Assembly: GCF_900142665.1 (NCBI RefSeq)
Contig: NZ_FRBR01000002.1
Coordinates: 62,001 to 126,000 of the forward strand
DNA length: 64,000 bases
Direction: 5' to 3'
DNA from: Roseovarius pacificus
GTDB taxonomy: Bacteria > Pseudomonadota > Alphaproteobacteria > Rhodobacterales > Rhodobacteraceae
Below are positions 8,192-51,379 of this stretch, in pieces. Each line of letters starts with the position of its first letter. Position 1 is the first letter of the stretch. A program made the translations under genes and the position numbers. The notes under the pieces were generated by a model that ran no database searches, was not told where the DNA came from, and saw only the letters and a list, made by a program, of their open reading frames with translations.

Positions 8192-9373
8192 ATGTCTGTT
8201 GCTATGCAAACTGGCCGTGTCCGTTCCGAACATCTATCCGCCGCTCTGATCCGCCTTCTGGCAGTCGGTGCCGGCGCGGCCGTCGCCAACAGCTATTATA
8301 ATCAGGCTTTCCCCGGCCATCTGACTGCGGATTTCGGGCTGACGGCTGGCACCGCCGCCATCGTGCCCGTGCTGACGCAGGCGGGCAACGCGCTCGGGGT
8401 GCTCTTCCTCGCACCACTCGGGGACCGCCTCGAGCGTAAGTCGCTTATCCTCGTGACCATCGCCTCCCTCGTGGCGGCGCTGATCGGTGCGGCTGTCTCG
8501 CCCGGCTTCGTGTGGCTCGCTGTTGCTAGTTTCGCGGTCGGCCTGTTCGCCACGGTCGCCCAGCAGATCGTGCCGCTCGCCGTACATCTGGCTCCTCCCG
8601 ACAGGCAAGGTCGTGCACTCGGCACGGTAACAGGCGGCATCCTGATCGGTATTCTGCTTGCCCGTGCGGCAAGCGGCATAATCTCGGACCTTTGGGGATG
8701 GCCAAACGTGTTCTGGCTGGCGGCGGTCGTGATGAGCATTGTCGGCGCGGCGCTGGCGTGTTGGCTTCCCCGTGCGATGCCGACGACCAACTTGAGTTAT
8801 CTGCGCCTGCTTGGATCTCTTTGGACGTTGGTACGCAAGTATAGCGTTCTCCGGCGCGTGGTCGTGGTGCAACTCCTGATCTTTGCGGCCTTCATCAGTT
8901 TTTGGTCGAACCTCGCGCTTCTGATGGCTGAGCCGCAGTATGAATTCGGAGGAACAGCTGTAGGTCTTCTGGCGCTGGTTGGTGTCGTCGGCGCGCTTGC
9001 CGCGCCTATCGCAGGCGGTTTCTCAGACAGGCGCGGGCCTGCCGTGGTAGTGTCGATGGGCGCGGGGCTCGTGGTACTGGCCTTCGTCATTTTCGGGCTC
9101 TGGCAAAGGTCCATTATTGGGTTGGTCGCCGGCATTGTGATCATGGATCTCGCTGTGCAATCCGCCCAGGTTGCCAACCAGTCGCGCGTTTATGCACTCG
9201 ATCCGAACGCGCGCAGCCGGCTTAACACCATATTCATGGCGACCATGCTCGCGGGTGGCGCGGTCGGGGCTGGCATTGGTGGCGCTGCCTACGCCGAGTG
9301 GGGCTGGAGCGGCACATGCGCCTTCGGCGTGATCTCGGCTACCTTGGCGATGCTGTTGTCGCGGAAGTCCTAA
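8192..9373 (+). CDS. MFS transporter
   Basis: 393 residues, 12 predicted hydrophobic segments. TM2-TM3 carries the MFS signature LGDRLERKSLI (residues about 74-84), preceded by VPVLTQAGNALGVLFLAPLGD. It resembles the YfcJ/AraJ-like group of bacterial efflux MFS proteins (early NSYYNQAFPG motif), known or proposed to export sugars or drugs. No regulator is adjacent, and the gene stands alone. A second ATG at codon 5 is possible. Confidence 0.85.
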   Translation: MSVAMQTGRVRSEHLSAALIRLLAVGAGAAVANSYYNQAFPGHLTADFGLTAGTAAIVPVLTQAGNALGVLFLAPLGDRLERKSLILVTIASLVAALIGAAVSPGFVWLAVASFAVGLFATVAQQIVPLAVHLAPPDRQGRALGTVTGGILIGILLARAASGIISDLWGWPNVFWLAAVVMSIVGAALACWLPRAMPTTNLSYLRLLGSLWTLVRKYSVLRRVVVVQLLIFAAFISFWSNLALLMAEPQYEFGGTAVGLLALVGVVGALAAPIAGGFSDRRGPAVVVSMGAGLVVLAFVIFGLWQRSIIGLVAGIVIMDLAVQSAQVANQSRVYALDPNARSRLNTIFMATMLAGGAVGAGIGGAAYAEWGWSGTCAFGVISATLAMLLSRKS

Positions 9374-39962: not shown

Positions 39963-41321
39963 ATGACGACCCGCATAACATATCGCCAGCACGCCCGCGC
40001 CATCCTTGGCCTTGGCCTGCCGCTGATCGGCAGCCACGTGGCGCAGTTCGCCATCACGCTGACCGATGCGGTGATGCTGGGCTGGTATTCGGTCGAGGCG
40101 CTTGCCGCCGAGGTACTGGGCGGCACCCTGTTCTTCGTGTTGTTCATCATGGGATCGGGCTTTGCCTGGGCGGTGATGCCGATGGTGGCCTCGGCGCAGG
40201 CGGCGGGCAATGAGACCCAGATCCGCCGGGTCACGCGTATGGGGGGATGGGCCTCGGTTATGTTCGGGCTGGCCTGCCTGCCGGTGATGGTGTGGTCAAC
40301 GCCGGTTTTTCTGATGCTCGGACAGGATGCGAACGTGTCGGTCCTGGCGGGGCAATATCTGGCGATCATGGGCTGGGGCATTTTGCCTGCGCTTTTGGTC
40401 ATGGTGCTGAAATCCTACCTCGCCGCGCTCGAACGGACGCAGGTCGTGCTGTGGGTGACGATGGCCGCTGTCGGGCTGAACATTCTGGTCAACAACGCGC
40501 TGATCTTCGGCAACTGGGGCTTTCCCGAACTGGGGGTGCGCGGTGCGGCCATTGCCTCGCTTACGGTCAATATCGCTTCGCTTCTGGCGCTTGCGATCTA
40601 TGTCGCGCGGGCCACGCCGGAGCATGCGCTGTTCCAGCGTATCTGGCGCGCCGATCCCGAGGCGCTGATCTCGGTCTTTCGTCTGGGCTGGCCGATCGGG
40701 ATCACCAATCTGGCGGAGGTGGGGTTGTTCGCCGCCTCCTCGGTGATGATGGGCTGGCTGGGGGCGTTGCCGCTGGCGGCGCACGGCATCGCGCTGCAAA
40801 TCACCTCGGTGATGTTCATGGTTCACATGGGGCTCAGTAACGCGGCGACGGTGCGCGCCGGGCAGGCGCATGGACGGGGGAACGGGCAGGCATTGCGCGA
40901 CGGAGCGGCGGTGGTTCTGGTCCTGTCCTTTGTTGCGGCGGCGGTGACGGTATGCCTGTTCCTGGCCTTGCCCGAGCCTCTCATGGGCCTGTTCATGAGC
41001 CCCGACGATCCCGACCGTCCGGCGGTGATCGGGATCGGGGTGGGGCTGCTGGCGGCGGCGGCGCTGTTTCAGCTGGTCGATGCCGGGCAGGTCATGGCGC
41101 TTGGCCTGCTTCGTGGCGTGCAGGACACGCGTGTGCCGATGGTCATCGCCGCGCTCAGTTATTGGGCTATCGGCGTGCCCGCCAGCTATGTGCTGGGGTT
41201 TGCGCTCGGACTGGAGGGCATCGGTATCTGGCTGGGTCTTGCCATCGGGCTGGCCTGTGCCGCGGTGTTCATGCTGGCCCGTTTCTGGGGCTGGTCGGCA
41301 CGCGGCGTGTCGGCGGGGTAA
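39963..41321 (+). CDS. MATE family efflux transporter
   Basis: 452 residues with about 12 TM segments in two halves. MATE features: GLPLIGSHVAQFAITLTDAVMLGW, GFAWAVMPMVASAQAAGN, a second half starting FRLGWPIGITNLAEVGLFAASSVMMGWLG, and DAGQVMALGLLRGVQDTRVPM near residue 374. It is a Na+/H+-driven multidrug exporter of the NorM group. No regulator is adjacent. Confidence 0.92.
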   Translation: MTTRITYRQHARAILGLGLPLIGSHVAQFAITLTDAVMLGWYSVEALAAEVLGGTLFFVLFIMGSGFAWAVMPMVASAQAAGNETQIRRVTRMGGWASVMFGLACLPVMVWSTPVFLMLGQDANVSVLAGQYLAIMGWGILPALLVMVLKSYLAALERTQVVLWVTMAAVGLNILVNNALIFGNWGFPELGVRGAAIASLTVNIASLLALAIYVARATPEHALFQRIWRADPEALISVFRLGWPIGITNLAEVGLFAASSVMMGWLGALPLAAHGIALQITSVMFMVHMGLSNAATVRAGQAHGRGNGQALRDGAAVVLVLSFVAAAVTVCLFLALPEPLMGLFMSPDDPDRPAVIGIGVGLLAAAALFQLVDAGQVMALGLLRGVQDTRVPMVIAALSYWAIGVPASYVLGFALGLEGIGIWLGLAIGLACAAVFMLARFWGWSARGVSAG

Positions 41322-41396
41322 GGGCGGAGCGGCAGCCCTTGATCCGGAGGGTTCTGTCGGGGTTTTCCAGAACACGGGGCGTGCCGGAAGGGCAGT

Positions 41397-41416
41397 ATGT
41401 ACTTTGGTAAGTACAT
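41397..41416. promoter_or_regulatory. Palindrome overlapping the amide operon promoter
   Basis: ATGTACTT, TGGT, AAGTACAT (41397-41416) is a perfect inverted repeat with eight-base arms. It overlaps the weak -35 (TTGGTA, 41404-41409) of the promoter whose -10 is TATAAT at 41429-41434. It is placed where an operator would act. Confidence 0.55.
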
Positions 41417-41434
41417 GAATTTAAAAAATATAAT
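41404..41434 (+). promoter_or_regulatory. Sigma-70 type promoter of the amide operon
   Basis: The -10 TATAAT (41429-41434) matches the consensus fully and is rare in such GC-rich DNA. The -35 TTGGTA (41404-41409) is weak with 19-bp spacing, so an activator or operator protein may modulate it. Transcription would start near 41441, giving a leader of about 160 nt before the first gene. Confidence 0.55.
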
Positions 41435-41471
41435 TTTCTTGCAAAAAAGAACTTTCTGCTGAACGATTGTT

Positions 41472-41516
41472 TCGGGTTCAAATGCGAACCTGAAAATATA
41501 ATGAGCAAAGAGGCTC
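41472..41516 (+). promoter_or_regulatory. Putative AmiR (ANTAR) antitermination target, two hexaloop hairpins
   Basis: P1: eight base pairs (41472-41479 with 41486-41493; one G-U) around the hexaloop AAATGC. P2: GAGC (41503-41506), loop AAAGAG, GCTC (41513-41516), so the loop has A1 and G4 as in the ANTAR consensus. P1 has A1 but U at position 4. The 3' arm of P2 uses bases that the terminator also needs, so the two structures exclude each other. An ANTAR protein (amiR) is the last gene of the operon, so antitermination control fits. Confidence 0.7.
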
Positions 41517-41556
41517 TCCGACCGTAGCGATCCAGCTGCGTTGGAGGGCCTTTTTT
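41512..41556 (+). terminator. Leader terminator of the amide operon
   Basis: GGCTCTCC (41512-41519) pairs with GGAGGGCC (41543-41550). An inner helix CGTAGC/GCTGCG (41523-41528 with 41535-41540) closes a hexaloop GATCCA. The stem is followed by T6 (41551-41556). It lies 48 bp before the first gene's start, so it is an attenuator, not an end-of-operon signal. Confidence 0.8.
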
Positions 41557-41603
41557 GTTGCCGTTTCAAATGGCCGCTCAAAAACAACAGAGGAGATAAC
41601 TAA

Positions 41604-42839
41604 ATGAAACGCCGCGATTTTCTTGGTGGGGTTGGAGCTGTCGGAACGGCTGGCATTCTCTCGACACCGGCACTTCTGACCTCGGCAAGTCGCGCTTTGG
41701 CGCAGGGCAACGATATTCCCGTCGGTCTGCTTTTCTCGCTCACCGGCGCGGTGGCCGTGGTGGAAAGCACCTTGCATGACGCTGCCCTCATGGCGATCGA
41801 AGAGATCAATGCGGCAGGTGGGATTCATGGCCGGCAGCTACGCCCGATCATCGAAGATCCCGCCTCGGACCCCGCGACCTATGCCGACCGCGCCCGCCGT
41901 CTGATGATCCGCGACAAGTGCGTCAGCGTCTTCGGATCGTATACCTCGGCCAGTCGGCAGGCTGTCTTGCCGGTGACGGAACAGCGCAAGAACCTCTATT
42001 GGTATCCGACGCTTTATGAGGGGCGCGAGTGTTCCAGGAACGTCATGTATGGCGGCGCCGTGCCGAACCAGCAGCAGGACGAACTGATCCCCTGGGCCAT
42101 CGAGAATTTCGGTCCGCGGTTCTACATGATCGGGAACAACTATGTGTATCCCAAGGAAGAGAACAACTATTGCAAGACGCTGCTTTCGGAATACGGCGGG
42201 GAAGTGGTTCATGAGGAATACGTGCCTCTGGGGCACTCGGATTTCAGTTCCGTAATCAACCGGATCCGCTCTGAACAGCCCGATGTCATCTTTGCCACGG
42301 TGGTGGGCGATTCCGACGTGGCGTTTGCGCGCCAGTATCATGCGGCTGAACTCGATCCCGCCAAGATGCCGGTTGTCAGCCTGACGCGCTCGGAAGTCGA
42401 GGTAAAAGCGATCGGCGGCGAAGCCGCGGCGGGGCACTTTTCCTCGGCACCATATTTCATGGGGCACGACACTCCGGAAAACGAGAAATTCGTGGAAGCC
42501 TACAAGTCCCGCTACGGGGCCGATCAGGTCACGCATTTCGTCAGCGAGGCGGCCTATTTCCAGGTCTACCAGTTCAAGGCGGCGCTCGAGAAACTGGACC
42601 CGGCAAACATCACGCCGGAAACCATTCGCGATGCGGCGGTCGGGCTGACACTCAACGCTCCGCAGGGCGAAATTCTGATCGACGAAAACCTTCACACGCA
42701 TCTTTGGCCAAAAATCGGCCAATGGCAGACCAACGGTCAGGCCGAGGTGCTGGTGGAGTCAACGGAGCGGATCGCGCCCAAGCCCTACGCCGCCTATGAC
42801 GGCCAGACCTGCACGGGTGAAGGCCTGGTCAAAGCCTGA
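41604..42839 (+). CDS. Substrate-binding protein of short-chain amide ABC importer (UrtA-like)
   Basis: 411 residues with a Tat-type signal (MKRRDFLGGVGAVGTAG, cleaved near residue 34). It belongs to the branched-chain/UrtA-like type I binding proteins. FGSYTSASRQAVLPV near residues 112-126 and YWYPTLYEGRE near 132 correspond to the ligand loops that AmiC uses (there GCYMS and FYPTLYEG). It is therefore a paralogue of the sensor AmiC at 48648. Start at 41604 follows AGGAGA. First gene of the operon, presumably feeding amide or urea to the permeases. Confidence 0.88.
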   Translation: MKRRDFLGGVGAVGTAGILSTPALLTSASRALAQGNDIPVGLLFSLTGAVAVVESTLHDAALMAIEEINAAGGIHGRQLRPIIEDPASDPATYADRARRLMIRDKCVSVFGSYTSASRQAVLPVTEQRKNLYWYPTLYEGRECSRNVMYGGAVPNQQQDELIPWAIENFGPRFYMIGNNYVYPKEENNYCKTLLSEYGGEVVHEEYVPLGHSDFSSVINRIRSEQPDVIFATVVGDSDVAFARQYHAAELDPAKMPVVSLTRSEVEVKAIGGEAAAGHFSSAPYFMGHDTPENEKFVEAYKSRYGADQVTHFVSEAAYFQVYQFKAALEKLDPANITPETIRDAAVGLTLNAPQGEILIDENLHTHLWPKIGQWQTNGQAEVLVESTERIAPKPYAAYDGQTCTGEGLVKA

Positions 42840-42915
42840 ACATCGCAAGCAATTCCAGACAGGAAACAGTGTCCGGCTCTGAAACATGGGCCGGACCCGT
42901 GGGAAAGGCGTTTTC

Positions 42916-43785
42916 ATGGACGTGATAGCTAATCAATTGTTTGCCGGGCTGAGCATGGCGTCGATCATGCTTATGATCGCCCTTGGCCTCGCGATCATCT
43001 ATGGCGCGATGGGGGTCATCAATCTTGCACATGGCGAGTTCGTCATGCTCGGCGCCTACGCGACATGGGCGCTCCAGACCTATGCGGGCCTTGGTATTCT
43101 TCCGGCATTGCCCCTGGTGTTCGTCGCGGTGGGGGCGGTCGGCTGGGTGATTGAAAAGGTGGTCGTTCAGAACCTGTATCACAGGCCACTGGACACGATC
43201 CTTGCGACATGGGGTATCGGGATCATTCTGCAACAGGCCGTTCGCCTTGGCGTCGGGGCTGAATCGCGTTTCGTCAAAGGGCCAGAACTGCTTTCCGGGA
43301 ACACGGAAATCGGCCCCCTGATCATGTCGAATTATCGCTTGTTCGTGATTTTCTTCTCGATTGCCGTTCTCTGGGGAAGCTGGCTTCTGATGACGCGGAC
43401 CGAGTTTGGTATGAAACTCCGTGCCATTATCCAGAACCGCAGCATTTCGGAATGCTACGGGATCGAGTCAAAGCGCGTCTACTCGATCACCTTTGCCTAT
43501 GGGGCAGGGCTGGCGGGGATTGCCGGGGCGTTGATTACCCCGCTGTTCAGCACGATCCCGACAATGGGAACGGGTCTGGTCGTGGATGCCTTCCTTGTCG
43601 TAATCGTCGGTGGGCTCGGAAGCCTGATCGGTGCGGCGACGGCCTCGGTTCTGATCGGCGAAGCGACGGCGCTGTTCTCGATGATCATGAACGACACCCT
43701 GGGCCGCATTGCGGTTCTGGCGGGCATCATTCTCCTGATCCGCTTCCGTCCGCGCGGGCTTTTCCCAACAGAAACACGTCGCTGA
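42916..43785 (+). CDS. ABC permease, UrtB/LivH-like
   Basis: 289 residues from the ATG at 42916, preceded by GGGAAAGG. LivH-type permease with about eight TM segments: GLAIIYGAMGVINLAHGEFVML, then TILATWGIGIILQQAVRL and the EAA-like loop RSISECYGIESKRVY. It pairs with the UrtC-like permease that follows by 10 bp. Confidence 0.9.
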   Translation: MDVIANQLFAGLSMASIMLMIALGLAIIYGAMGVINLAHGEFVMLGAYATWALQTYAGLGILPALPLVFVAVGAVGWVIEKVVVQNLYHRPLDTILATWGIGIILQQAVRLGVGAESRFVKGPELLSGNTEIGPLIMSNYRLFVIFFSIAVLWGSWLLMTRTEFGMKLRAIIQNRSISECYGIESKRVYSITFAYGAGLAGIAGALITPLFSTIPTMGTGLVVDAFLVVIVGGLGSLIGAATASVLIGEATALFSMIMNDTLGRIAVLAGIILLIRFRPRGLFPTETRR

Positions 43786-43795
43786 GGAAACCAGT

Positions 43796-44902
43796 ATGAC
43801 TTCCAGATTCCACTACGATCTCGTGGCGCTCGTGATCTTTACGGTCGTGATTGTATTCGGAGTTCCGGCTCTGATGAACTACGACGGTTTCGAACTCAAC
43901 ACGTTCGCGCGATACCTCGCATTGGCGATCGTATCCATGGCTCTGGCGCTGTCATGGGGCACGGCTGGACTGCTCAACCTGGGGCAGGCCGCGACCTTTG
44001 GCATGGGGTCATATGCAATGGCCATGCACCTGAAACTGCGTGCAAGCAATGGGCTGCCGGATTTCATGGGATGGAACAACGTTCCGGAACTTCCCTTGAT
44101 ATGGATGCCTTTCGAATCCCTTGCCTTCACGTTGCTGGCCGGATTGCTGATCCCTGCTTTCGTCGGAGGGCTGATCGCGATTTTCATGTTCCGCGCCCGG
44201 ATTGCCGGTGTTTTCGTGGCAATCATCACGCTGGCTTTTCTGGTGGCGTTCCAGCTTCTGGTCATTGATCAGCAAGGCCTGACCGGAGGGCAGAACGGGC
44301 TGACCGGCCTGGCGCAATTGTCGCTTCCGGGCTGGACGGTCGATCCCTACAGCATGGGGTTTTACTACCTCGTTGCAGGGTGCCTGGCCGTTGCGCTTGC
44401 CGTTGGTGTTTACCTGACCCACAGCAAATTCGGTCTGGTCCTTCGCGCCATTCGCGAGGATGCCGATCGGACGCGTTTCTTCGGCTACAACGTCGCAACG
44501 TATCAGACAGCGGTTTTTTGCATCTCAGCCGCGCTCGCGGGGTGGGCGGGGATGCTTTACACGATGGTGCTGGAATTCGCGTCGCCAACCTACATGGGCG
44601 TTTCGTTCAGTCTGGCGATTGTCATCTGGTGCGCTGTCGGCGGGCGGGAGTCGGTCATTGCCGCGGCGTTCGGGGCGATTATCGTCAACATGCTCGAGGG
44701 GCGGCTTTCGGACGTATTCGTTGAAGGCTGGCACCTCATGCTGGGCGTGATCTTCGTGCTTGTCGTCATGTTCATGCCGCGCGGCATCTACGGATTGCTG
44801 TCCGAACTCGCGGCGAAACTTCGGCGGGCGGGGCGGCAGGGAAATGCCGCCAGCATAGACCCCTCGTCAAAAACTCAACTCGAAACCGGGCAGGAGCAAT
44901 AA
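43796..44902 (+). CDS. ABC permease, UrtC/LivM-like
   Basis: 368 residues. LivM-type permease: YLALAIVSMALALSWGTAGLLNLGQAATFGMGSY, then TGGQNGLTGLAQL and the coupling loop REDADRTRFFGYNVATYQ. An extended hydrophilic C-terminus ends GQEQ. Second transmembrane component of the importer. It ends 2 bp before the ATPase gene. Confidence 0.9.
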   Translation: MTSRFHYDLVALVIFTVVIVFGVPALMNYDGFELNTFARYLALAIVSMALALSWGTAGLLNLGQAATFGMGSYAMAMHLKLRASNGLPDFMGWNNVPELPLIWMPFESLAFTLLAGLLIPAFVGGLIAIFMFRARIAGVFVAIITLAFLVAFQLLVIDQQGLTGGQNGLTGLAQLSLPGWTVDPYSMGFYYLVAGCLAVALAVGVYLTHSKFGLVLRAIREDADRTRFFGYNVATYQTAVFCISAALAGWAGMLYTMVLEFASPTYMGVSFSLAIVIWCAVGGRESVIAAAFGAIIVNMLEGRLSDVFVEGWHLMLGVIFVLVVMFMPRGIYGLLSELAAKLRRAGRQGNAASIDPSSKTQLETGQEQ

Positions 44903-44904
44903 CC

Positions 44905-45633
44905 ATGCAGCAACTGCAAGTCACCGATCTGCATGTAGAATTCGGCGGTCTGCGCGCCGTGGACGGGCTCAGCTTTGCCGTGGAAGAAGGAGAGATTCTT
45001 TGCCTGCTGGGGCCGAATGGTGCGGGGAAGTCCACGACTTTGGATCTGATCTGCGGCAAGACCCAGCCAACGGGCGGGTCCATACGGCTGAATGGAACCG
45101 AAATTTCACAGATGCTGGAGTTTCGCCGTGCCCGTCTTGGTATTGGCCGCAAGTTTCAGGTTCCCTCAGTTTACAGGGATCTGACCGTCGCCGAGAACCT
45201 GTCGGTCGCAAGATCGCGGCGACCGGGGCTGTGGAGCGCTTTGACGCGTTTCTCTCTTTCTGACGTGCGGGAGACGGAAGGAATTCTGGAACGGGTCGAC
45301 CTGAGTTCGAAGCGTGAAGAACTGGCGGGCAACCTGTCACATGGTGAGACGCAATGGCTGGAGATCGCCATGCTGATTGCGCAGGACAGCCGGCTGATCC
45401 TGATGGATGAGCCCACCGCCGGCATGACGATTCAGGAAACCGAGAAAACCGCCGAAATTTTCCGATCCCTGAGCGACAGCCACACCCTGATTGTCGTCGA
45501 GCACGACATGTCGTTCGTCCGCACCGTCGCCGACCGGATCATCGTGATGAACCGTGGCGCGATGCTTGCAGAGGGTTCGATCGAGGAAATCGAAACCAAT
45601 GAAGACGTGAAAACAGCGTATCTGGGGCATTGA
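44905..45633 (+). CDS. ABC ATPase, UrtD/LivG-like
   Basis: 242 residues. Walker A GPNGAGKSTT near 33-42; signature LSHGETQWLEIA near 143; Walker B LILMDEPTAGM near 163; H-loop IVVEHDMSF near 196. LSHGE replaces LSGGQ, as is common for LivG/UrtD. It supplies one ATPase subunit of the importer; the other is the next gene. Confidence 0.92.
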   Translation: MQQLQVTDLHVEFGGLRAVDGLSFAVEEGEILCLLGPNGAGKSTTLDLICGKTQPTGGSIRLNGTEISQMLEFRRARLGIGRKFQVPSVYRDLTVAENLSVARSRRPGLWSALTRFSLSDVRETEGILERVDLSSKREELAGNLSHGETQWLEIAMLIAQDSRLILMDEPTAGMTIQETEKTAEIFRSLSDSHTLIVVEHDMSFVRTVADRIIVMNRGAMLAEGSIEEIETNEDVKTAYLGH

Positions 45634-45635
45634 TC

Positions 45636-46337
45636 ATGGAAAATATGCAAGCGAGAGACCTGTATTCCTTTTACGGAAAGAGCCCGGTGATCCTGGGGGT
45701 GTCTTTCGATCTGGACCCCGGTGAGTTTCTGGCGGTGCTCGGACGGAACGGCGTCGGGAAAACCACGCTTCTCAAATCCATCATGGGGCTGACGGATCGT
45801 TGCGAAGGCGGGCTTGCCTTCGGGAGCCAGGACATACTGGGGTTGTCTACGCCCCAGAGATCGAAGCTCGGGATCGCGTATATCCCGCAAGGCCGTGAAG
45901 TCATTCCCCAGTTCACGGTTCGCGAGAATATACTCATGGGCACATTTGCCCGACCGGACGGCAAGCGTGACATACCGGACTACCTGTTCGAGATGTTCCC
46001 GATTCTCGACGAGTTCATTTCACGCCGCGGCGGCGATTTGTCCGGCGGTCAGCAGCAACAGCTGGCGATTGCCAGAGCGCTGGCCATGGACCCCAAGATT
46101 CTCATCCTCGATGAGCCCACGGAGGGCATTCAGCCCAATATCGTGAAACAGATCGAGGATGCGATTGTCCGGCTCAATCGGGAACGCGGGCTGGGCATCA
46201 TCCTTGTCGAGCAAAATGTGCCGTTTGCACGAACAGCATCGGACCGCTTTCTGGTGCTGGACAAGGGGCGCGTCGTTCTGAGCGGGAAATCCGAAGACCT
46301 CACCGACGACGTTGTCGAAAAACACCTGACATTCTGA
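45636..46337 (+). CDS. ABC ATPase, UrtE/LivF-like
   Basis: 233 residues from the ATG at 45636; a TTG at 45630 is possible. Walker A GRNGVGKTTLLKSIMG near 34-49; signature LSGGQQQQLAIARAL near 133; Walker B ILILDEPTEGIQPNIV near 153; H-loop LVEQNVPFA. LivF-type motifs (PQGREVIPQFTV, EGIQP) identify it as the partner of the UrtD-like protein. Confidence 0.92.
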   Translation: MENMQARDLYSFYGKSPVILGVSFDLDPGEFLAVLGRNGVGKTTLLKSIMGLTDRCEGGLAFGSQDILGLSTPQRSKLGIAYIPQGREVIPQFTVRENILMGTFARPDGKRDIPDYLFEMFPILDEFISRRGGDLSGGQQQQLAIARALAMDPKILILDEPTEGIQPNIVKQIEDAIVRLNRERGLGIILVEQNVPFARTASDRFLVLDKGRVVLSGKSEDLTDDVVEKHLTF

Positions 46338-46385
46338 CCGGTCAGGACAATCCACCATCAAGGACCAACAGGAAAGGACCAGAAA

Positions 46386-47429
46386 ATGAGACATGGTGAC
46401 ATTTCAAGCAGCGACAACACGGTTGGTGTCGCGGTTGTGAACTACAAGATGCCAAGGCTTCATACCAAGGCCGAGGTCATGGAGAACGCAGAAAAGATTG
46501 CGGACATGATCATTGGAATGAAGCAGGGCCTGCCCGGCATGGATCTGGTGATCTTCCCGGAATACAGCACGCAGGGTATCATGTACGACCCTGACGAGAT
46601 GATGGAAACGGCCGCCAGCATTCCCGGCGACGAAACGGAAGTGTTCGCCAGAGCGTGCCGCAAGGCCAATACCTGGGGCGTTTTTTCGCTTACCGGGGAG
46701 CGTCACGAAGAGCATCCGAAAAAGACGCCCTACAACACGCTTATCCTGATGAACAACAAGGGTGAGGTCGTGCAGAAATATCGCAAGATCCTGCCTTGGA
46801 ACCCGATCGAAGGCTGGTATCCCGGCGATCAGACATATGTTGTCGAAGGTCCGAAAGGCCTCAAGGTCAGCCTGATTATCTGCGACGATGGCAACTATCC
46901 CGAAATCTGGCGCGATTGCGCGATGAAGGGGGCGGAACTGATCGTTCGCTGCCAGGGATACATGTATCCCGCGAAAGATCAGCAGGTCATCATGGCCAAA
47001 GCCATGGCCTGGGCCAACAACAGCTATGTCGCGGTGGCCAACGCTGCGGGTTTCGACGGTGTCTACAGCTATTTCGGACACTCGGCGATCATCGGATTCG
47101 ACGGGCGTACCCTGGGCGAATGCGGCGAGGAAGAGATGGGTATCCAGTATGCCCAGCTTTCGATCCCGGAAATTCGCGATGCGCGCGCCAACGATCAATC
47201 GCAGAACCATCTCTTCAAGCTGCTGCACCGTGGATATACGGGCATTCATGCCTCGGGAGATGGCGACAAGGGCGTGGCGGAATGTCCGTTCGAGTTCTAT
47301 CGCAACTGGGTCAATGACGCGGAAAAAACGCGCGAGCATGTCGAGTCCTTCACGCGTTCGACGATCGGCGTGGCCTGCTGTCCCGTCGGAGGCTTGCCGA
47401 CAGGCGCCAAAGAAAAAGAAGCGAAATGA
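46386..47429 (+). CDS. amiE: Aliphatic amidase
   Basis: 347 residues, a near-textbook AmiE. The start [20 protein letters not shown] is that of the Pseudomonas enzyme. The nitrilase-superfamily triad is in register: Glu59 (FPEYS), Lys134 (YRKILP) and Cys166 (LIICDDGN), with Glu142 (PIEGW) also kept. It hydrolyses short aliphatic amides (acetamide, propionamide) to acid and ammonium. It sits between the ABC importer and amiBCR, so the operon both imports and cleaves amides. An 18-base palindrome follows its stop. Confidence 0.96.
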
Positions 47430-47448
47430 TCGTTCATGAGCTATATGG

Positions 47449-47466
47449 GCGGCCCGGCCGGGCCGC
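47449..47466 (+). repeat. Perfect 18-bp palindrome between amiE and amiB
   Basis: GCGGCCCGGCCGGGCCGC lies 20 bp after the amiE stop and 30 bp before amiB. It forms a strong GC hairpin without T-run. Such intercistronic hairpins often protect upstream mRNA from 3' decay or reduce downstream translation; here this would favour amidase over the regulators. Confidence 0.65.
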
Positions 47467-47496
47467 TCATCCTCAGTTCAATTGGTAGGAGCGGAC

Positions 47497-48633
47497 ATGC
47501 CTTTCCTGACGGACCGGATGCATGACACCCAGAGACAACAAAAGCTCGAAGCCGCCCTGGCGGATGAAAATGCCGGCGCTGTCGGGAGGGCCGATCACAA
47601 AGCAGCTTCTGCGCGTGCTCTTGCATCGCGCTTTTCATTCGATCTCGATCTGGTCGAGGCCGAACTGCGCGCGGCGATCATCGGGCAGGACGAGGCGATC
47701 GGGCAGGTGTTGGAAATCCTGAAGGTCGTTCGTGCCGATATCGGCGATCCGCGAAAACCTCTGGCATCCGTGCTCTTTTGCGGTCCGACGGGGGTGGGCA
47801 AGACGGAAACGGTCCGTACGATTGCACGGGCGATGTATGGCGATGCGGATGCGTTTTGCAGGATTGATATGAACACGCTCTCGCAGGAGCATTATGCCGC
47901 CGCGCTTACGGGCGCACCGCCGGGATATGTGGGGTCCAAGGAAGGGACGACCATTCTGGATCAGGAAAAGATCGAAGGAACCCGGAACCTTCCGGGGCTG
48001 GTTCTGTTCGACGAACTCGAAAAAGCGAGCAACGAAGTGGTGCTTGCCCTGATGAACGTATTCGACAATGGTATCCTGACCGTAGCTTCGGGGGAGCGCA
48101 CATATTCCTTCAGAAACAGCCTGATCTTTATGTCATCCAACCTCGGAGCGCGGGAATTGATGGCGCTCGACGACGCGGTCGCATTTACCCCGCGCGCGAT
48201 CTGGGCGCGGCTGACCAGTGTCTCCAAACCGCGGAGCGAACGCGCGCATGACATCGTCATGCGTTGCCTGCTGGAGCGATTTCCACCGGAACTGGTGAAC
48301 AGGATCGATCATATCGATACGTTCAACTGGATCGGCAGCGACAAGATGCCAGCGCTTGTCGATGTGGAATTCGAACGTTTGAACAGGCGCCTGAAGAAAC
48401 ATGACCTCTGGCTTGAAATTTCCGACGAGGTTAGAGGTTTTGTTGCGTCGAAAGGCTATGATAAACGCTTTGGCGCACGGGGGCTTCGGCGTGCGATAAG
48501 GCGCCACCTGGAGTTTCCTCTGGCCGGGTATCTGCTTGGCGATCACGGAGATTTCTCGCCTCCTGACGGAAGCGCCGTGATCAGGATACAGGCCCAGTAC
48601 CGAGATGGAATTGTTTCATTTCGACAGTTTTGA
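47497..48633 (+). CDS. amiB: AAA+ ATPase AmiB-like
   Basis: 378 residues from the ATG at 47497 (AGGAG upstream; a TTG at 47482 would add five residues). ClpB/ClpX-like AAA+ core: ARALASRFSFDLDLVEAELRAAIIGQDEAI, Walker A CGPTGVGKTETVRTIA near 98, Walker B VLFDELEKAS near 169 and sensor-2 region KRFGARGLRRAIRRHLEFPLA near 327. In Pseudomonas amiB lies between amiE and amiC and encodes such an ATPase of poorly known role. The same order here supports the name. Confidence 0.85.
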   Translation: MPFLTDRMHDTQRQQKLEAALADENAGAVGRADHKAASARALASRFSFDLDLVEAELRAAIIGQDEAIGQVLEILKVVRADIGDPRKPLASVLFCGPTGVGKTETVRTIARAMYGDADAFCRIDMNTLSQEHYAAALTGAPPGYVGSKEGTTILDQEKIEGTRNLPGLVLFDELEKASNEVVLALMNVFDNGILTVASGERTYSFRNSLIFMSSNLGARELMALDDAVAFTPRAIWARLTSVSKPRSERAHDIVMRCLLERFPPELVNRIDHIDTFNWIGSDKMPALVDVEFERLNRRLKKHDLWLEISDEVRGFVASKGYDKRFGARGLRRAIRRHLEFPLAGYLLGDHGDFSPPDGSAVIRIQAQYRDGIVSFRQF

Positions 48634-48647
48634 AAGGGATTTCTTCG

Positions 48648-49799
48648 TTGGAAAGTTGGAAAATCGGGCTGCTGTTTTCAGTGACGGGGGTAACGTCGAT
48701 TATCGAGCGATCGCAACTGAACGGGGCGTTGCTTGCGATCGATCAGATCAATGCGAAAGGCGGCGTGCTCGGTCGTCCATTGGAGCCCGTTCGCTATGAT
48801 CCGGCCTCGGTCGTCAAACGATACGGGGAACTGGCAGAAAAACTGATCGTCGAAGACAAGATCAGTGTGATTTTCGGCTGCTATATGTCGTCATCGCGCA
48901 AAGAAGTGCTGCCCGTTGTCGAACGCCGGAACGCATTGTTTTTCTATCCGACCCTTTACGAAGGCTTCGAGTATTCTCCCAACGTGATCTATGGCGGTGC
49001 ATGTCCGAACCAGAACAGCGTTCCGCTGGCCAATTTCCTGATGAACACCTATGGGAAACGCGTTTTCTTTGTCGGGTCCGATTACATATATCCGAGGGAA
49101 TCCAACCGCGTCATGCGCAATGTTCTTCGCCAGGGCGGCGGGGAAGTCACGGGCGAAGTCTATTTCGACCTCGAGGCGGAAGCCGCGGATTTCTCCGGCG
49201 TCGTCGACGAGATCATGAAGGTGAAGCCCGATGCAATTTTTTCGACAGTTGTCGGACAAGCCTGTATTGAGTTCTATAAAGCCTATCATCTGGCCGGTGG
49301 GGACGGTCGAAAGTGTCCAATTGCCAGCCTGACCACGAATGAAGGGGAGATCGACGCCATAGGTCCTGAAGCTTCGGCCGGGCACATCACCGCCGCACCG
49401 TATTTCCGCTCGGTCCATTCACCGGCCAATCGCCGGTTCCTCAAGGCATATGAGGAAAAATTCGGTTCGACAGTGGATGTCACCAGTTGTTGCGAAGCGA
49501 CCTATAGCCAGGTCCATATGTTTGCTCTTGCGCTTGAAGAGACGGGTGAGATCGATACCGAATGTTTGCGAGAGGCGTTGCTGGGCGCGAGTTTCGACGC
49601 CCCTCAGGGGCAAATCAAGATAGACCCCGACAACAATCACACTTATCTGCAATCGCGAATCGCAAAGGTCGATAACAACGGTGAATTCGTCATCGAGGCC
49701 AAGGTGCGCCGCGCGATCAAGCCAGACCCTTATCTGGTGTTTCCAGCCATCCATGACTGGAGCTTCCGGACGCTGAAAGTGGCCGGAGGCGGGCGTTAG
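48648..49799 (+). CDS. amiC: Amide sensor / AmiR repressor AmiC
   Basis: 383 residues if the TTG at 48648 is used (AAGGGA 8 nt upstream); a TTG at 48630 overlaps the amiB stop and adds six residues. The protein resembles AmiC throughout: IGLLFSVTGVTSIIERSQ, GCYMSSSRKEVLPVVERRNAL, FFYPTLYEGFEYSPNVIYGG, FVGSDYIYPRESNRVMR, FSTVVG and QNSVPLANFL. It is a periplasmic-binding-protein fold without signal peptide, so cytoplasmic. In Pseudomonas AmiC holds AmiR inactive until amide binds. The Tyr/Ser/Thr ligand loops are kept. Confidence 0.93.
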   Translation: MESWKIGLLFSVTGVTSIIERSQLNGALLAIDQINAKGGVLGRPLEPVRYDPASVVKRYGELAEKLIVEDKISVIFGCYMSSSRKEVLPVVERRNALFFYPTLYEGFEYSPNVIYGGACPNQNSVPLANFLMNTYGKRVFFVGSDYIYPRESNRVMRNVLRQGGGEVTGEVYFDLEAEAADFSGVVDEIMKVKPDAIFSTVVGQACIEFYKAYHLAGGDGRKCPIASLTTNEGEIDAIGPEASAGHITAAPYFRSVHSPANRRFLKAYEEKFGSTVDVTSCCEATYSQVHMFALALEETGEIDTECLREALLGASFDAPQGQIKIDPDNNHTYLQSRIAKVDNNGEFVIEAKVRRAIKPDPYLVFPAIHDWSFRTLKVAGGGR

Positions 49800-49800
49800 C

Positions 49801-50400
49801 ATGAGTGATCCGATCCAGGATCTCAGGGATCTTCATGCGCTTGTCGTCCACCCGAGGGACAGAAGCGCCGACGAGCTGATGCAGCAAGTCAACAGGATCG
49901 GGTGTAATTTTGACCATATGTGGCCGGTGCCCAAAACGCTGCCGGAGAAGTTCGATCTGGTGTTTGTCGATGTAACGGATCAAAACGCGCAAAGGCTGAA
50001 GTCATTTATCGGAAGCAGCCCGAAATCGCCTTCGGTCGTGGCCATTATCGGCTATGAAAACCCTTCGGTTCTCGATCTGATTTTCGAGATCGGGGCGCAT
50101 TCGGTATTGATGAAACCGGTGCGTGCCGCAGGTGTGTTGAGCAGTATGCTGATGGCGCGCCGGTTCCAGCAGGAGCAGTTACACTTTGAAAAAGACCTCA
50201 CCAAGCTGCGTGAGAAACTCGATAATGTGCAAAAGGTGAATGACGCCAAGTTCATCCTGATGCGGCATCGCGGAATTACCGAGAGGCAAGCCTACGATCT
50301 GATACGCAAGCAGGCGATGGCGAAAAGAGCGACCACGACAGAGATCGCGCAATCAATCATCAATGCCGAGAGTATCCTTAGCAATATGGGGGATACATGA
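49801..50400 (+). CDS. amiR: ANTAR antiterminator AmiR
   Basis: 199 residues. A degenerate receiver domain (residues about 10-120) lacks the phosphorylatable Asp arrangement. A coiled coil follows (EKDLTKLREKLDNVQKVNDAKF, about 128-150). The C-terminal ANTAR domain is FILMRHRGITERQAYDLIRKQAMAKRATTTEIAQ near 150-185. AmiR binds leader RNA to block termination when released from AmiC. It starts 1 bp after the amiC stop with GGAGG upstream. The leader at 41472-41556 is the obvious target. Last gene of the operon. Confidence 0.95.
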   Translation: MSDPIQDLRDLHALVVHPRDRSADELMQQVNRIGCNFDHMWPVPKTLPEKFDLVFVDVTDQNAQRLKSFIGSSPKSPSVVAIIGYENPSVLDLIFEIGAHSVLMKPVRAAGVLSSMLMARRFQQEQLHFEKDLTKLREKLDNVQKVNDAKFILMRHRGITERQAYDLIRKQAMAKRATTTEIAQSIINAESILSNMGDT

Positions 50401-50464
50401 CCGGCTGGGGTGCAGGCCGATCTGCCGCTCGGTCGGGGTGCTCCGGGACCGTCTCAGGCGGCGT

Positions 50465-51379
50465 TCATATCTGGCCGATGACGAAATCCGGCACGATGCC
50501 GGACCGGCCTACCGCGGTGTCGGCGTCCATCCCGGCCAGCAGGCCGTGATTCATCACCAGTGCCGTGGCAAACCCCATGTGCCGCCCGCCTAGGACATCG
50601 GTGTGCAGCGTATCGCCAACCATCAGCACCCGGGCAGGGGGCGGCAGCGGATCGTGGCGTGCCAGAGCAAGATCGTAGATTTCGCCAAAGGGCTTGCCCA
50701 GAAACCGCGGTTCGATCCCCGTGACATCGGCAAGACGGTGCGCGAAATAGCCGGGCTCACGTGACAACCCGCCCTCGCGCGGGGCGACAATATCGGGGTT
50801 GCCGACGATCACCGGCCGGGGATTTTTGCACAGCGAATTTTCAAGCATATCCTGGCGCGCATCCGTCCAGCCGTCCGAGCCGACCAGCAGGATGCCTTCG
50901 GCTGCGTCATAGGCGGCGGGGTCGTCCGCAAGGACATGCGCGTCGATCCCGTTCAGGTCGTCGGTTCCGTTGACCGCGTTAAGCATCATGCCCCATCTCC
51001 GGGGTGGCATGCTGGCGAGATGCGCAAGCAGTGCTTCGCGGCTTGTGACCACCTCGGACGGGCTGAAATCGAAACCGAGACGGGTATAGCGCTGCATCAT
51101 CCGCGCCTTGGGATACCCTGCGGAGTTCGACACCACCATGACTCGCTTGCCCGCCGCCCGCAGCGCCGCAATCCTTTCGACCGCGCCGTCAATCGGCGTT
51201 TCGCCAACGTTCAACACGCCATAGGCGTCGAGCAGGATCAGATCGAACGCCTCCGCGATGTTCTCCAGCGACGACGCAGCTGTCCAGTTCGTGCCGAACG
51301 TGGCCCCTGGCAGGCGATGGCGGACCGAGAGATAGGCGTTGAATGCGGTCTCGGCGTCTGTCGTCATCATTCGGTTCAA
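50465..51379 (-). CDS. HAD class IIA hydrolase of phosphonate/phosphate-ester locus
   Basis: 304 residues, TIGR01459-like HAD-IIA. Motif I is LLDAYGVLNVGETP near residues 48-58 (DxxGVL variant of class IIA), then VVSNSAGYP (motif II), IVGNPDIVAPRE and the Asp-rich VLMVGDTLHTDVLGG near 257 (motif IV). It probably removes phosphate from an imported organic phosphate. It overlaps the PhnE-like permease by 4 bp, so it is the last gene of phnDCEE-HAD. Confidence 0.8.
   Translation of the reverse strand: MNRMMTTDAETAFNAYLSVRHRLPGATFGTNWTAASSLENIAEAFDLILLDAYGVLNVGETPIDGAVERIAALRAAGKRVMVVSNSAGYPKARMMQRYTRLGFDFSPSEVVTSREALLAHLASMPPRRWGMMLNAVNGTDDLNGIDAHVLADDPAAYDAAEGILLVGSDGWTDARQDMLENSLCKNPRPVIVGNPDIVAPREGGLSREPGYFAHRLADVTGIEPRFLGKPFGEIYDLALARHDPLPPPARVLMVGDTLHTDVLGGRHMGFATALVMNHGLLAGMDADTAVGRSGIVPDFVIGQI

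Follow-up and report, generated by a model that had tools for sequence, protein, structure and literature searches.

How does an amide reach its amidase in an ami operon without AmiS? The question is raised by a locus in the window analyzed here, a 64,000-nucleotide stretch of Roseovarius pacificus DNA (contig NZ_FRBR01000002.1, positions 62,001 to 126,000; coordinates below are counted within this window). The operon order in Pseudomonas aeruginosa is amiEBCRS. Positions 41604-50400 of the window hold, on the + strand, nine intact open reading frames (ORFs) for a substrate-binding protein (SBP), UrtB, UrtC, UrtD, UrtE, AmiE, AmiB, AmiC, and AmiR, and AmiS_UreI (PF02293) gave no matches in the whole 4.5-Mb genome (completeness 99.98%). 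The operon is real, conserved, and coherent. We consider it probable, with good confidence, that the unit takes up and hydrolyzes short-chain aliphatic amides of the acetamide/propionamide class, perhaps also urea or formamide, and that it regulates itself. An earlier note, made from the sequence of the window, had described such an operon; its functional reading appears largely right, and its evolutionary framing is probably reversed, as described later.

Organization of the operon

The nine genes are as follows; NCBIfam cut-offs were applied for the Urt and amidase families.

41604..42839, + strand: SBP with a start of the twin-arginine translocation (Tat) type (MKRRDFL), predicted to be an amide-type binding protein (Peripla_BP_5)
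42916..43785, + strand: UrtB-like permease (TIGR03409, 324.5 bits, cut-off 250.3)
43796..44902, + strand: UrtC-like permease (TIGR03408, 337.7 bits, cut-off 296.2)
44905..45633, + strand: UrtD-like ATPase (TIGR03411, 305.4 bits, cut-off 304.1)
45636..46337, + strand: UrtE-like ATPase (TIGR03410, 303.9 bits, cut-off 285.8)
46386..47429, + strand: amiE, aliphatic amidase (NF009802, 711.8 bits, cut-off 427)
47497..48633, + strand: amiB, AAA+ ATPase resembling the second ATPase domain of ClpB (AAA_2 and ClpB_D2-small)
48630..49799, + strand: amiC, predicted cytoplasmic amide sensor with a TTG start (Peripla_BP_5)
49801..50400, + strand: amiR, antiterminator with AmiR_N and ANTAR (PF21332, 141.1 bits; PF03861, 53.4 bits)

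The order proposed in the earlier note (importer, amiE, amiB, amiC, amiR) agrees with these frames, and the family-model scores confirm its assignments of UrtB, UrtC, UrtD, UrtE, AmiE, AmiB, AmiC, and AmiR. Its description of the importer as UrtABCDE-like stands for the four UrtB to UrtE components, which pass their cut-offs, but not for the SBP, which misses that of UrtA (390.9 of 492.75 bits). Since a separate UrtA of the same genome, on contig C7 and adjoined by urease-like genes (L058), exceeds it with 537.9 bits, the label "UrtA-like" for the SBP of the window needs a caveat. No signal peptide is seen in the AmiC of the window, which is 47.0% identical to P. aeruginosa AmiC (1PEA). AmiR matches chain D of the solved structure 1qo0 (E 9.9e-29), and relatives with solved structures exist for the SBP, AmiC, and AmiR.

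The earlier note gave spacings of 1-2 bp except at a palindrome between amiE and amiB. With the start codons judged best, on which these figures depend, the gaps instead span −4 to 76 bp: 76 (SBP-UrtB), 10 (UrtB-UrtC), 2 (UrtC-UrtD), 2 (UrtD-UrtE), 48 (UrtE-AmiE), 67 (AmiE-AmiB), −4 (AmiB-AmiC, with the TTG start at 48630), and 1 bp (AmiC-AmiR). Tight spacing is restricted to some junctions. The same note held that AmiS is not part of this system, in agreement with the lack of PF02293 matches, which puts the operon outside the E-B-C-R-S form. By analogy, the unit should work like the ami system despite the missing AmiS.

Conservation of the gene order

A contig scan with an AmiR alignment, whose search patterns bias it to close relatives, gave 48 loci, which were annotated by the proteins of the window; P. 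aeruginosa is absent from the matches. This search for homologues with Urt neighbors, which the earlier note had proposed, found the full nine-gene order SBP-B-C-D-E-amiE-amiB-amiC-amiR in 17 of the 48 loci (L059-L069, L071-L075, and L077). They come from Thalassovita, Mameliella, Antarcticimicrobium, Roseovarius, Actibacterium, Roseivivax, Pseudohalocynthiibacter, Paracoccus, Roseobacter, Loktanella, Brevirhabdus, Fulvimarina, and another member of the Rhodobacteraceae. The order therefore exceeds chance and is not a one-off.

The importer and amiE occur together in 28/48 loci, also in other arrangements. In five loci (L079-L083), amiC-amiR come first and are followed by the importer, amiE, and amiB; six others (L086-L089, L091, and L101) have amiC-amiR, the importer, and amiE with no amiB detected. 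Seven loci (L084, L085, L090, L094, and L097-L099) carry amiC-amiR, the importer, and the urease genes UreF, fused UreAB, and UreC; the L090 genome also has a match to amiE (L044), which starts about 3 kb beyond. L095 has amiC-amiR, urease, and amiE, with the importer not detected, and at the end of L092 only UreF is reached. Judging from the gene order, AmiC/AmiR apparently controls urease in these seven loci and L095. Pontibaca salina (L070) retains the importer, amiC, and amiR, but no more than a 38-residue match of amiE and two short ones of amiB are left (8220-8699). Four loci are cut short (L076, L078, L093, and L096), L100 is an AmiR fragment, and the five Clostridia loci (L102-L106) have ANTAR matches only.

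Among 198 sampled genomes of the same family, some of which recur among the 48 loci, six (that of the window included) have an AmiR of at least about 55% identity. Five of them carry the importer operon. The sixth, G013 (L040), has leader-amiE-B-C-R: some 0.2 kb separates its leader from amiE, and importer genes went undetected in the 17.5-kb stretch.

Structure of the leader RNA

As the earlier note had claimed, a leader with a terminator lies upstream of the SBP gene, and the importer and amidase genes follow this single conserved leader.

41439..41467, + strand: possible promoter, TTGCAA, 17 bp, AACGAT (from comparison only)
41470..41495, + strand: leader hairpin P1, 10-bp stem with hexaloop AAATGC (loop 41480-41485; from folding and covariation)
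41503..41516, + strand: leader hairpin P2, GAGC-AAAGAG-GCTC (loop 41507-41512; from folding and covariation), overlapping the 5′ arm of the terminator
41512..41556, + strand: intrinsic terminator, 16-bp stem with a T6 run, mutually exclusive with P2 (from folding and covariation)

Eighteen leaders were aligned, namely those of the window, 16 Rhodobacterales loci from the AmiR-alignment scan, and the importer-less G013 locus; those of L063 (close to L061), L077, L079-L083, and L101 were left out, as were those of L084-L099. In P1, 91.3% of the cells pair and 5/7 counted pairs are changed on both sides. The terminator stem (−27.5 kcal/mol) has both sides changed in 10 of its 16 pairs. P2 is paired in 100% of the cells, with one of its four pairs changed on both sides and three invariant, so that covariation lies mostly in P1 and the terminator. 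When P1 and P2 are taken together, 94.4% of the cells are paired, with 23 changes on both sides against a shuffled mean of 7.7; for P1 and the terminator the values are 90.4% and 61 against 20.6. None of 500 shuffles scored as high in either case, and shifting the partner by one to three columns lowered the pairing below 50% for both combinations. A covariance model of the leader, which scored 150 of 972 first-look candidates in the genome, gave a single match, the leader of the window itself (93.3 bits).

ANTAR RNA targets are dual-hexaloop hairpins in which A1 and G4 are required in both loops (PMC3369931, PMC8934654). The leader of the window has a pair of small hairpins, each with a loop of six bases, and the second one overlaps the terminator; A1 is kept in both loops of all 18 aligned leaders. 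The structure fits the published model except at loop position 4, a mismatch that weighs against the explanation we prefer, although AmiR, in our own reading of its alignment, keeps Lys150, Glu161, Tyr165, Arg169, and Met173, the equivalents of the EutV contacts. The P2 loop AAAGAG has G4 but the P1 loop AAATGC has U4, and G4, which EutV needs, is kept in only one of the 18 leaders at P1 and in two at P2, the window being among the latter. In seven leaders from other groups (L077, L079-L083, and L101), the P2-like loop has G4 in 7/7 and A1 in 6/7 (G in L082). A dual-hexaloop leader was not seen in L084-L099.

Two further candidates were set aside. An Rfam scan suggested ctRNA_p42d for the leader at 17.9 bits against a threshold of 50, which was taken as chance. 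A perfect 20-bp inverted repeat with 8-bp arms, ATGTACTT-TGGT-AAGTACAT (41397-41416), lies upstream of the possible promoter; it was not seen by eye in other leaders and is not regarded as part of the system.

Transcription unit and proposed mechanism

The candidate promoter boxes were compared by eye among 19 Rhodobacterales leaders, where TTGC occurs in 18 and AACGAT in nine. A transcript start is predicted near 41473, at the base of P1. Some observations weigh against transcription of all nine genes from this site. A consensus scan of 41200-50700 reported no promoter-like site on the + strand, the candidate promoter included. It also reported 14 terminator-like sites against a shuffled mean of 9.3 (sd 3.9), among them 41531-41545 in the inner part of the leader terminator; the scan therefore supports that part of the leader only. 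In addition, the 48 bp between the importer and amiE and the 67 bp between amiE and amiB could house processing or start sites.

If the unit were divided, the leader would control the importer, and amiEBCR would have a promoter of its own, within or upstream of the 48-bp gap between UrtE and amiE. This noncoding gap itself and the arrangement in G013, where the leader stands before amiE with no importer detected and where leader and importer are hence separable, are consistent with such a division. The nine-gene order of the 17 loci, however, argues for a joint unit, as do the single leader match in the genome and the lack of a + strand promoter-like site, though the scan misses the candidate promoter of the leader as well. 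Two transcription units thus seem unlikely to us.

The spacer between amiE and amiB contains the palindrome pointed out in the earlier note.

47445..47470, + strand: intercistronic hairpin between amiE and amiB, without a T run (from folding of the spacer)

A long hairpin was also found in all 22 other folded loci with amiE adjoining amiB (L070, with remnants only, was excluded). Their sequences are unlike, and the hairpins are mostly G+C-rich with no T run. Our guess is that the element protects the 3′ end of an mRNA, or serves in processing or shaping the amiE message.

For the single self-regulating operon that we prefer, the following course can be proposed, with the action of AmiC and AmiR taken from P. 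aeruginosa. Gene content and order, the folding and covariation of the leader, the agreement of the pockets described below, the lack of an AmiS match, and the position of AmiC in the tree are read from sequence, and from there we infer the ligand, transport, the promoter, the single transcript, and the roles of AmiB and the amiE-amiB hairpin. Without ligand, transcripts from the promoter before the leader would stop at the terminator. Import of the amide would fall to the UrtBCDE-like ATP-binding cassette (ABC) complex together with the Tat-exported SBP. In the cytoplasm, AmiC, which is related to the SBP and shares its pocket residues, would bind the amide and release AmiR. AmiR may then bind P1 and P2 in the nascent leader, P2 capturing the 5′ arm of the terminator, so that transcription would continue through the importer, amiE, amiB, amiC, and amiR. 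AmiE would hydrolyze the amide to acid and ammonia. The result would be positive feedback in which one binding-protein family reads the same ligand on both sides of the membrane, and the operon is a clear-cut example in which related binding proteins may act in this way.

Ligand-binding pockets of the SBP and AmiC

In UrtA of Prochlorococcus, nine residues lie near urea, and changes of W120, S122, Q144, Y190, and N246 abolish or strongly decrease binding (PMC10392092). We aligned 160 binding proteins, in which five distant sensors (L154, L155, L161, L164, and L165) were labeled by hand because tblastn missed their AmiR. The five positions are Y, S, L, Y, and V in both the SBP and the AmiC of the window, and W, S, Q, Y, and N in the above-cut-off UrtA of the genome (contexts checked). 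The window SBP thus lacks W120, Q144, and N246, while UrtB to UrtE meet the urea-transporter cut-offs and the SBP does not meet that of UrtA. Because the SBP has the very substitutions of AmiC at these three urea-binding positions, the importer is likely an amide importer, and it most likely recognizes the same small amide as the sensor of the window. A cargo unrelated to amides, such as branched-chain amino acids, appears unlikely, since the SBP pocket resembles that of AmiC and not that of a urea-binding protein. Scavenging of amides at low concentration would be plausible for an ABC importer.

The 11-residue pocket string of the window, YTSYTLEYYVS, is found in 27/68 SBPs, and Y[MT]SYTLEYYVS in 37/87 sensors; P. 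aeruginosa AmiC has Pro in place of Leu. Where the operon carries a distant nitrilase (25-29% to AmiE), the SBPs show another string, ETSYSFEYF[AS]N. A complication for an amide-specific importer is that SBPs with YTSYTYEYYV[AS] precede urease genes in 7/48 loci and amiE in others, so that the pocket is also compatible with urea.

These data bear on two other explanations of the importer. It might be a second urea transporter that lies upstream of the amidase operon by chance, with amides diffusing in and the amidase unit being autonomous. UrtB, UrtC, UrtD, and UrtE do pass urea-transporter cut-offs, and in the seven loci urease genes follow close relatives of the SBP. We nevertheless regard this as very improbable, judging from the below-cut-off SBP without W120, Q144, and N246 (residues as in PMC10392092), from the separate UrtA beside urease-like genes, which the genome already has, and from the 28 loci in which the importer and amiE occur together. 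The other explanation is a broad importer of amides and urea, with AmiC deciding the inducing ligand. Here Methylophilus Fmd is a precedent (PMC10781810, citing Mills 1998), and the occurrence of one pocket type before both amiE and urease points the same way. This is a possibility that we hold as doubtful, because the SBP and AmiC of the window have Leu where urease-linked SBPs have Tyr, and because another UrtA lies beside urease-like genes.

Neighbors of AmiR in the phylum

We searched 397 genomes of the phylum for AmiR_N (PF21332) and examined all 37 above-cut-off sites, found in 30 genomes, the window being one of them. An AmiC-like gene adjoins 34 of the sites. Importer-like genes lie on the same strand within 9 kb at 30/37 sites: at 18 they are of the Urt/Liv type (AmiC is present at 17 of these), and at the other 12 there are two ATPases of a different type. 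As a control, 20 stretches of the same genomes away from AmiR were searched at near-equal thresholds, and importer-like genes were found in 3 of the 40 strand-windows. The importer types beyond Urt/Liv rest on two ATPase matches, and the peptide-importer type was checked with Pfam in L158 only, where it is of the SBP_bac_5 and BPD_transp_1 type. Of the remaining sites, three have ATPase matches solely on the opposite strand, and at four no such matches were found; two of the latter lie in ORFs of more than 600 residues that lack AmiC, and they probably do not represent AmiR.

AmiC/AmiR pairs beside importer-like genes are the rule in the examined sample, and this general pattern is the interesting part of the analysis. 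AmiS was searched for in 34 AmiR_N-bearing genomes, namely 27 of the 30 from the survey and seven from the family, and was found in 3 of them, in no case near the AmiR site: it lies on other contigs in two genomes and 57 kb away in the third. More distant AmiC/AmiR pairs also stand beside two-ATPase importers and varied hydrolases (L154-L158, L165, and others).

Origin of AmiC

A tree of the binding proteins places all sensors in one clade. In the first tree, from which 57 of the 160 proteins were omitted (near-copies at 85% or four off-family SBPs), this clade comprises 67/67 sensors, P. aeruginosa AmiC (1PEA) included, with a Shimodaira-Hasegawa-like approximate likelihood ratio test (SH-aLRT) value of 100. 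A careful tree was built from 53 proteins after cuts at 62% for sensors and 80% for others, with six rows dropped by hand (the four off-family SBPs, and the sensor and SBP of L047 because of long branches); it unites 27/27 sensors with support of 100/99. When rooted on UrtA, the sister of the sensors is the clade of amide-importer SBPs (95 in the first tree and 98/94 in the careful one), where one of the four outgroup rows, L065_16309, is called UrtA by its best BLAST match only and lacks Q144 and N246. The tree groups were named partly after inspection of the tree. Topology tests rejected the union of all 22 SBPs (approximately unbiased test, p-AU 0.0023) and of amide SBPs with UrtA (p-AU 0.0006). 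In the loci inspected, the Tat-type start is kept in SBPs and absent from sensors.

The simplest reading of these sequences is that AmiC arose from one duplication of an amide-importer binding protein. Since the sampled AmiC-type sensors, including that of P. aeruginosa, group as a single clade within the importer SBPs, the original version may be the one with the importer, and the AmiS form of P. aeruginosa would then be derived. Two results oppose this origin. The union of 21 SBPs without L139 was not rejected (p-AU 0.094), in a set that is not final, and L139 itself, a cut SBP before amiE in another family, is basal and stands outside the amide-SBP clade.

The earlier note saw the operon as a special form in which the importer substitutes for AmiS. 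This is not borne out, and the framing is probably reversed: replacement of AmiS by the importer was dropped as an origin, because importers are usual beside AmiC/AmiR in the examined sample, AmiS is found in 3/34 genomes and never nearby, and the AmiC tree places the sensors as described above. We lean slightly toward AmiC/AmiR being in essence a regulator of importer operons. The binding protein of an ancestral importer for amides would have been duplicated once, and one copy would have lost its export signal to become a cytoplasmic gauge of the cargo of its sister. Further importers (those of the Dpp type) and enzymes (urease and distant nitrilases) would then have acquired the pair; the Pseudomonas operon would be derived, its importer given up for AmiS. 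The classic AmiC/AmiR antitermination pair thereby gains a testable evolutionary origin.

Comparison with known systems

The P. aeruginosa ami operon shares with the window amiE, amiB, amiC, and amiR in the same order and an ANTAR regulator, and the leader of its amiE has two small hexaloop hairpins (PMC3369931). The window differs in lacking AmiS and in having five importer genes between the leader and amiE.

Judging from the passages cited here, the combination of an amidase with an amide importer has already been proposed or described, and that of amiE/amiC/amiR with another importer type is reported in Klebsiella. The acetamidase operon of Klebsiella plasmid pKOS9W-1 has amiE, amiC, amiR, and an ABC importer, which is of "cluster 5" with four genes, unlike the five-gene Urt-like set of the window; amiB is not named in section 3.3, which describes the operon (PMC13209695). 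The same source gives P. veronii as having urtABCDE, fmdA, and amiE without amiCR. Methylophilus fmdCABDEF joins an amidase to an amide importer, Fmd being reported to carry amides and urea, and has a formamidase, a putative positive regulator, and a porin in contrast to AmiE/AmiC/AmiR in the window (PMC10781810). In Bradyrhizobium japonicum blr0968-0973, a five-gene Urt-like importer lies beside an aliphatic amidase, and the authors inferred amides, not urea, as the cargo; unlike in the window, AmiC/AmiR are not mentioned in the passage on these genes (PMC3098086). Among the matches listed for open-licence PMC papers, we found no description of a Urt-like importer with amiEBCR, of the origin of AmiC, or of AmiC/AmiR before urease.

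Plasmid operons of Rhizobium etli and Roseibium algicola (L174 and L175) resemble the window in combining an AmiC-like protein, an ANTAR protein, an SBP, urtBCDE, and an aliphatic amidase. They differ in that the regulators come first and CbbQ and VWA proteins occupy the AmiB slot downstream of amiE. Because CbbQ and VWA can follow amiE where AmiB is absent, amiE may tend to have some AAA+ partner. An acetate-CoA ligase comes next in the R. etli operon. Some importers automatically annotated as "urea transporter", such as these two, are suggested to carry amides. On an Agrobacterium plasmid (L197, CP129670.1), an AmiC-like and ANTAR pair heads a cluster of a GTP-binding protein, ferredoxin, CbtA/CbtB, a tubulin-like protein, and CbbQ/VWA, and no full importer is annotated in that stretch.

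NasS of the nitrate system is of binding-protein origin, its binding-protein family and ligand differing from those of AmiC. NasS-NasT is a two-protein sensor/antiterminator whose RNA-binding partner is released on ligand (PMC3795266), a logic that it shares with AmiC/AmiR.

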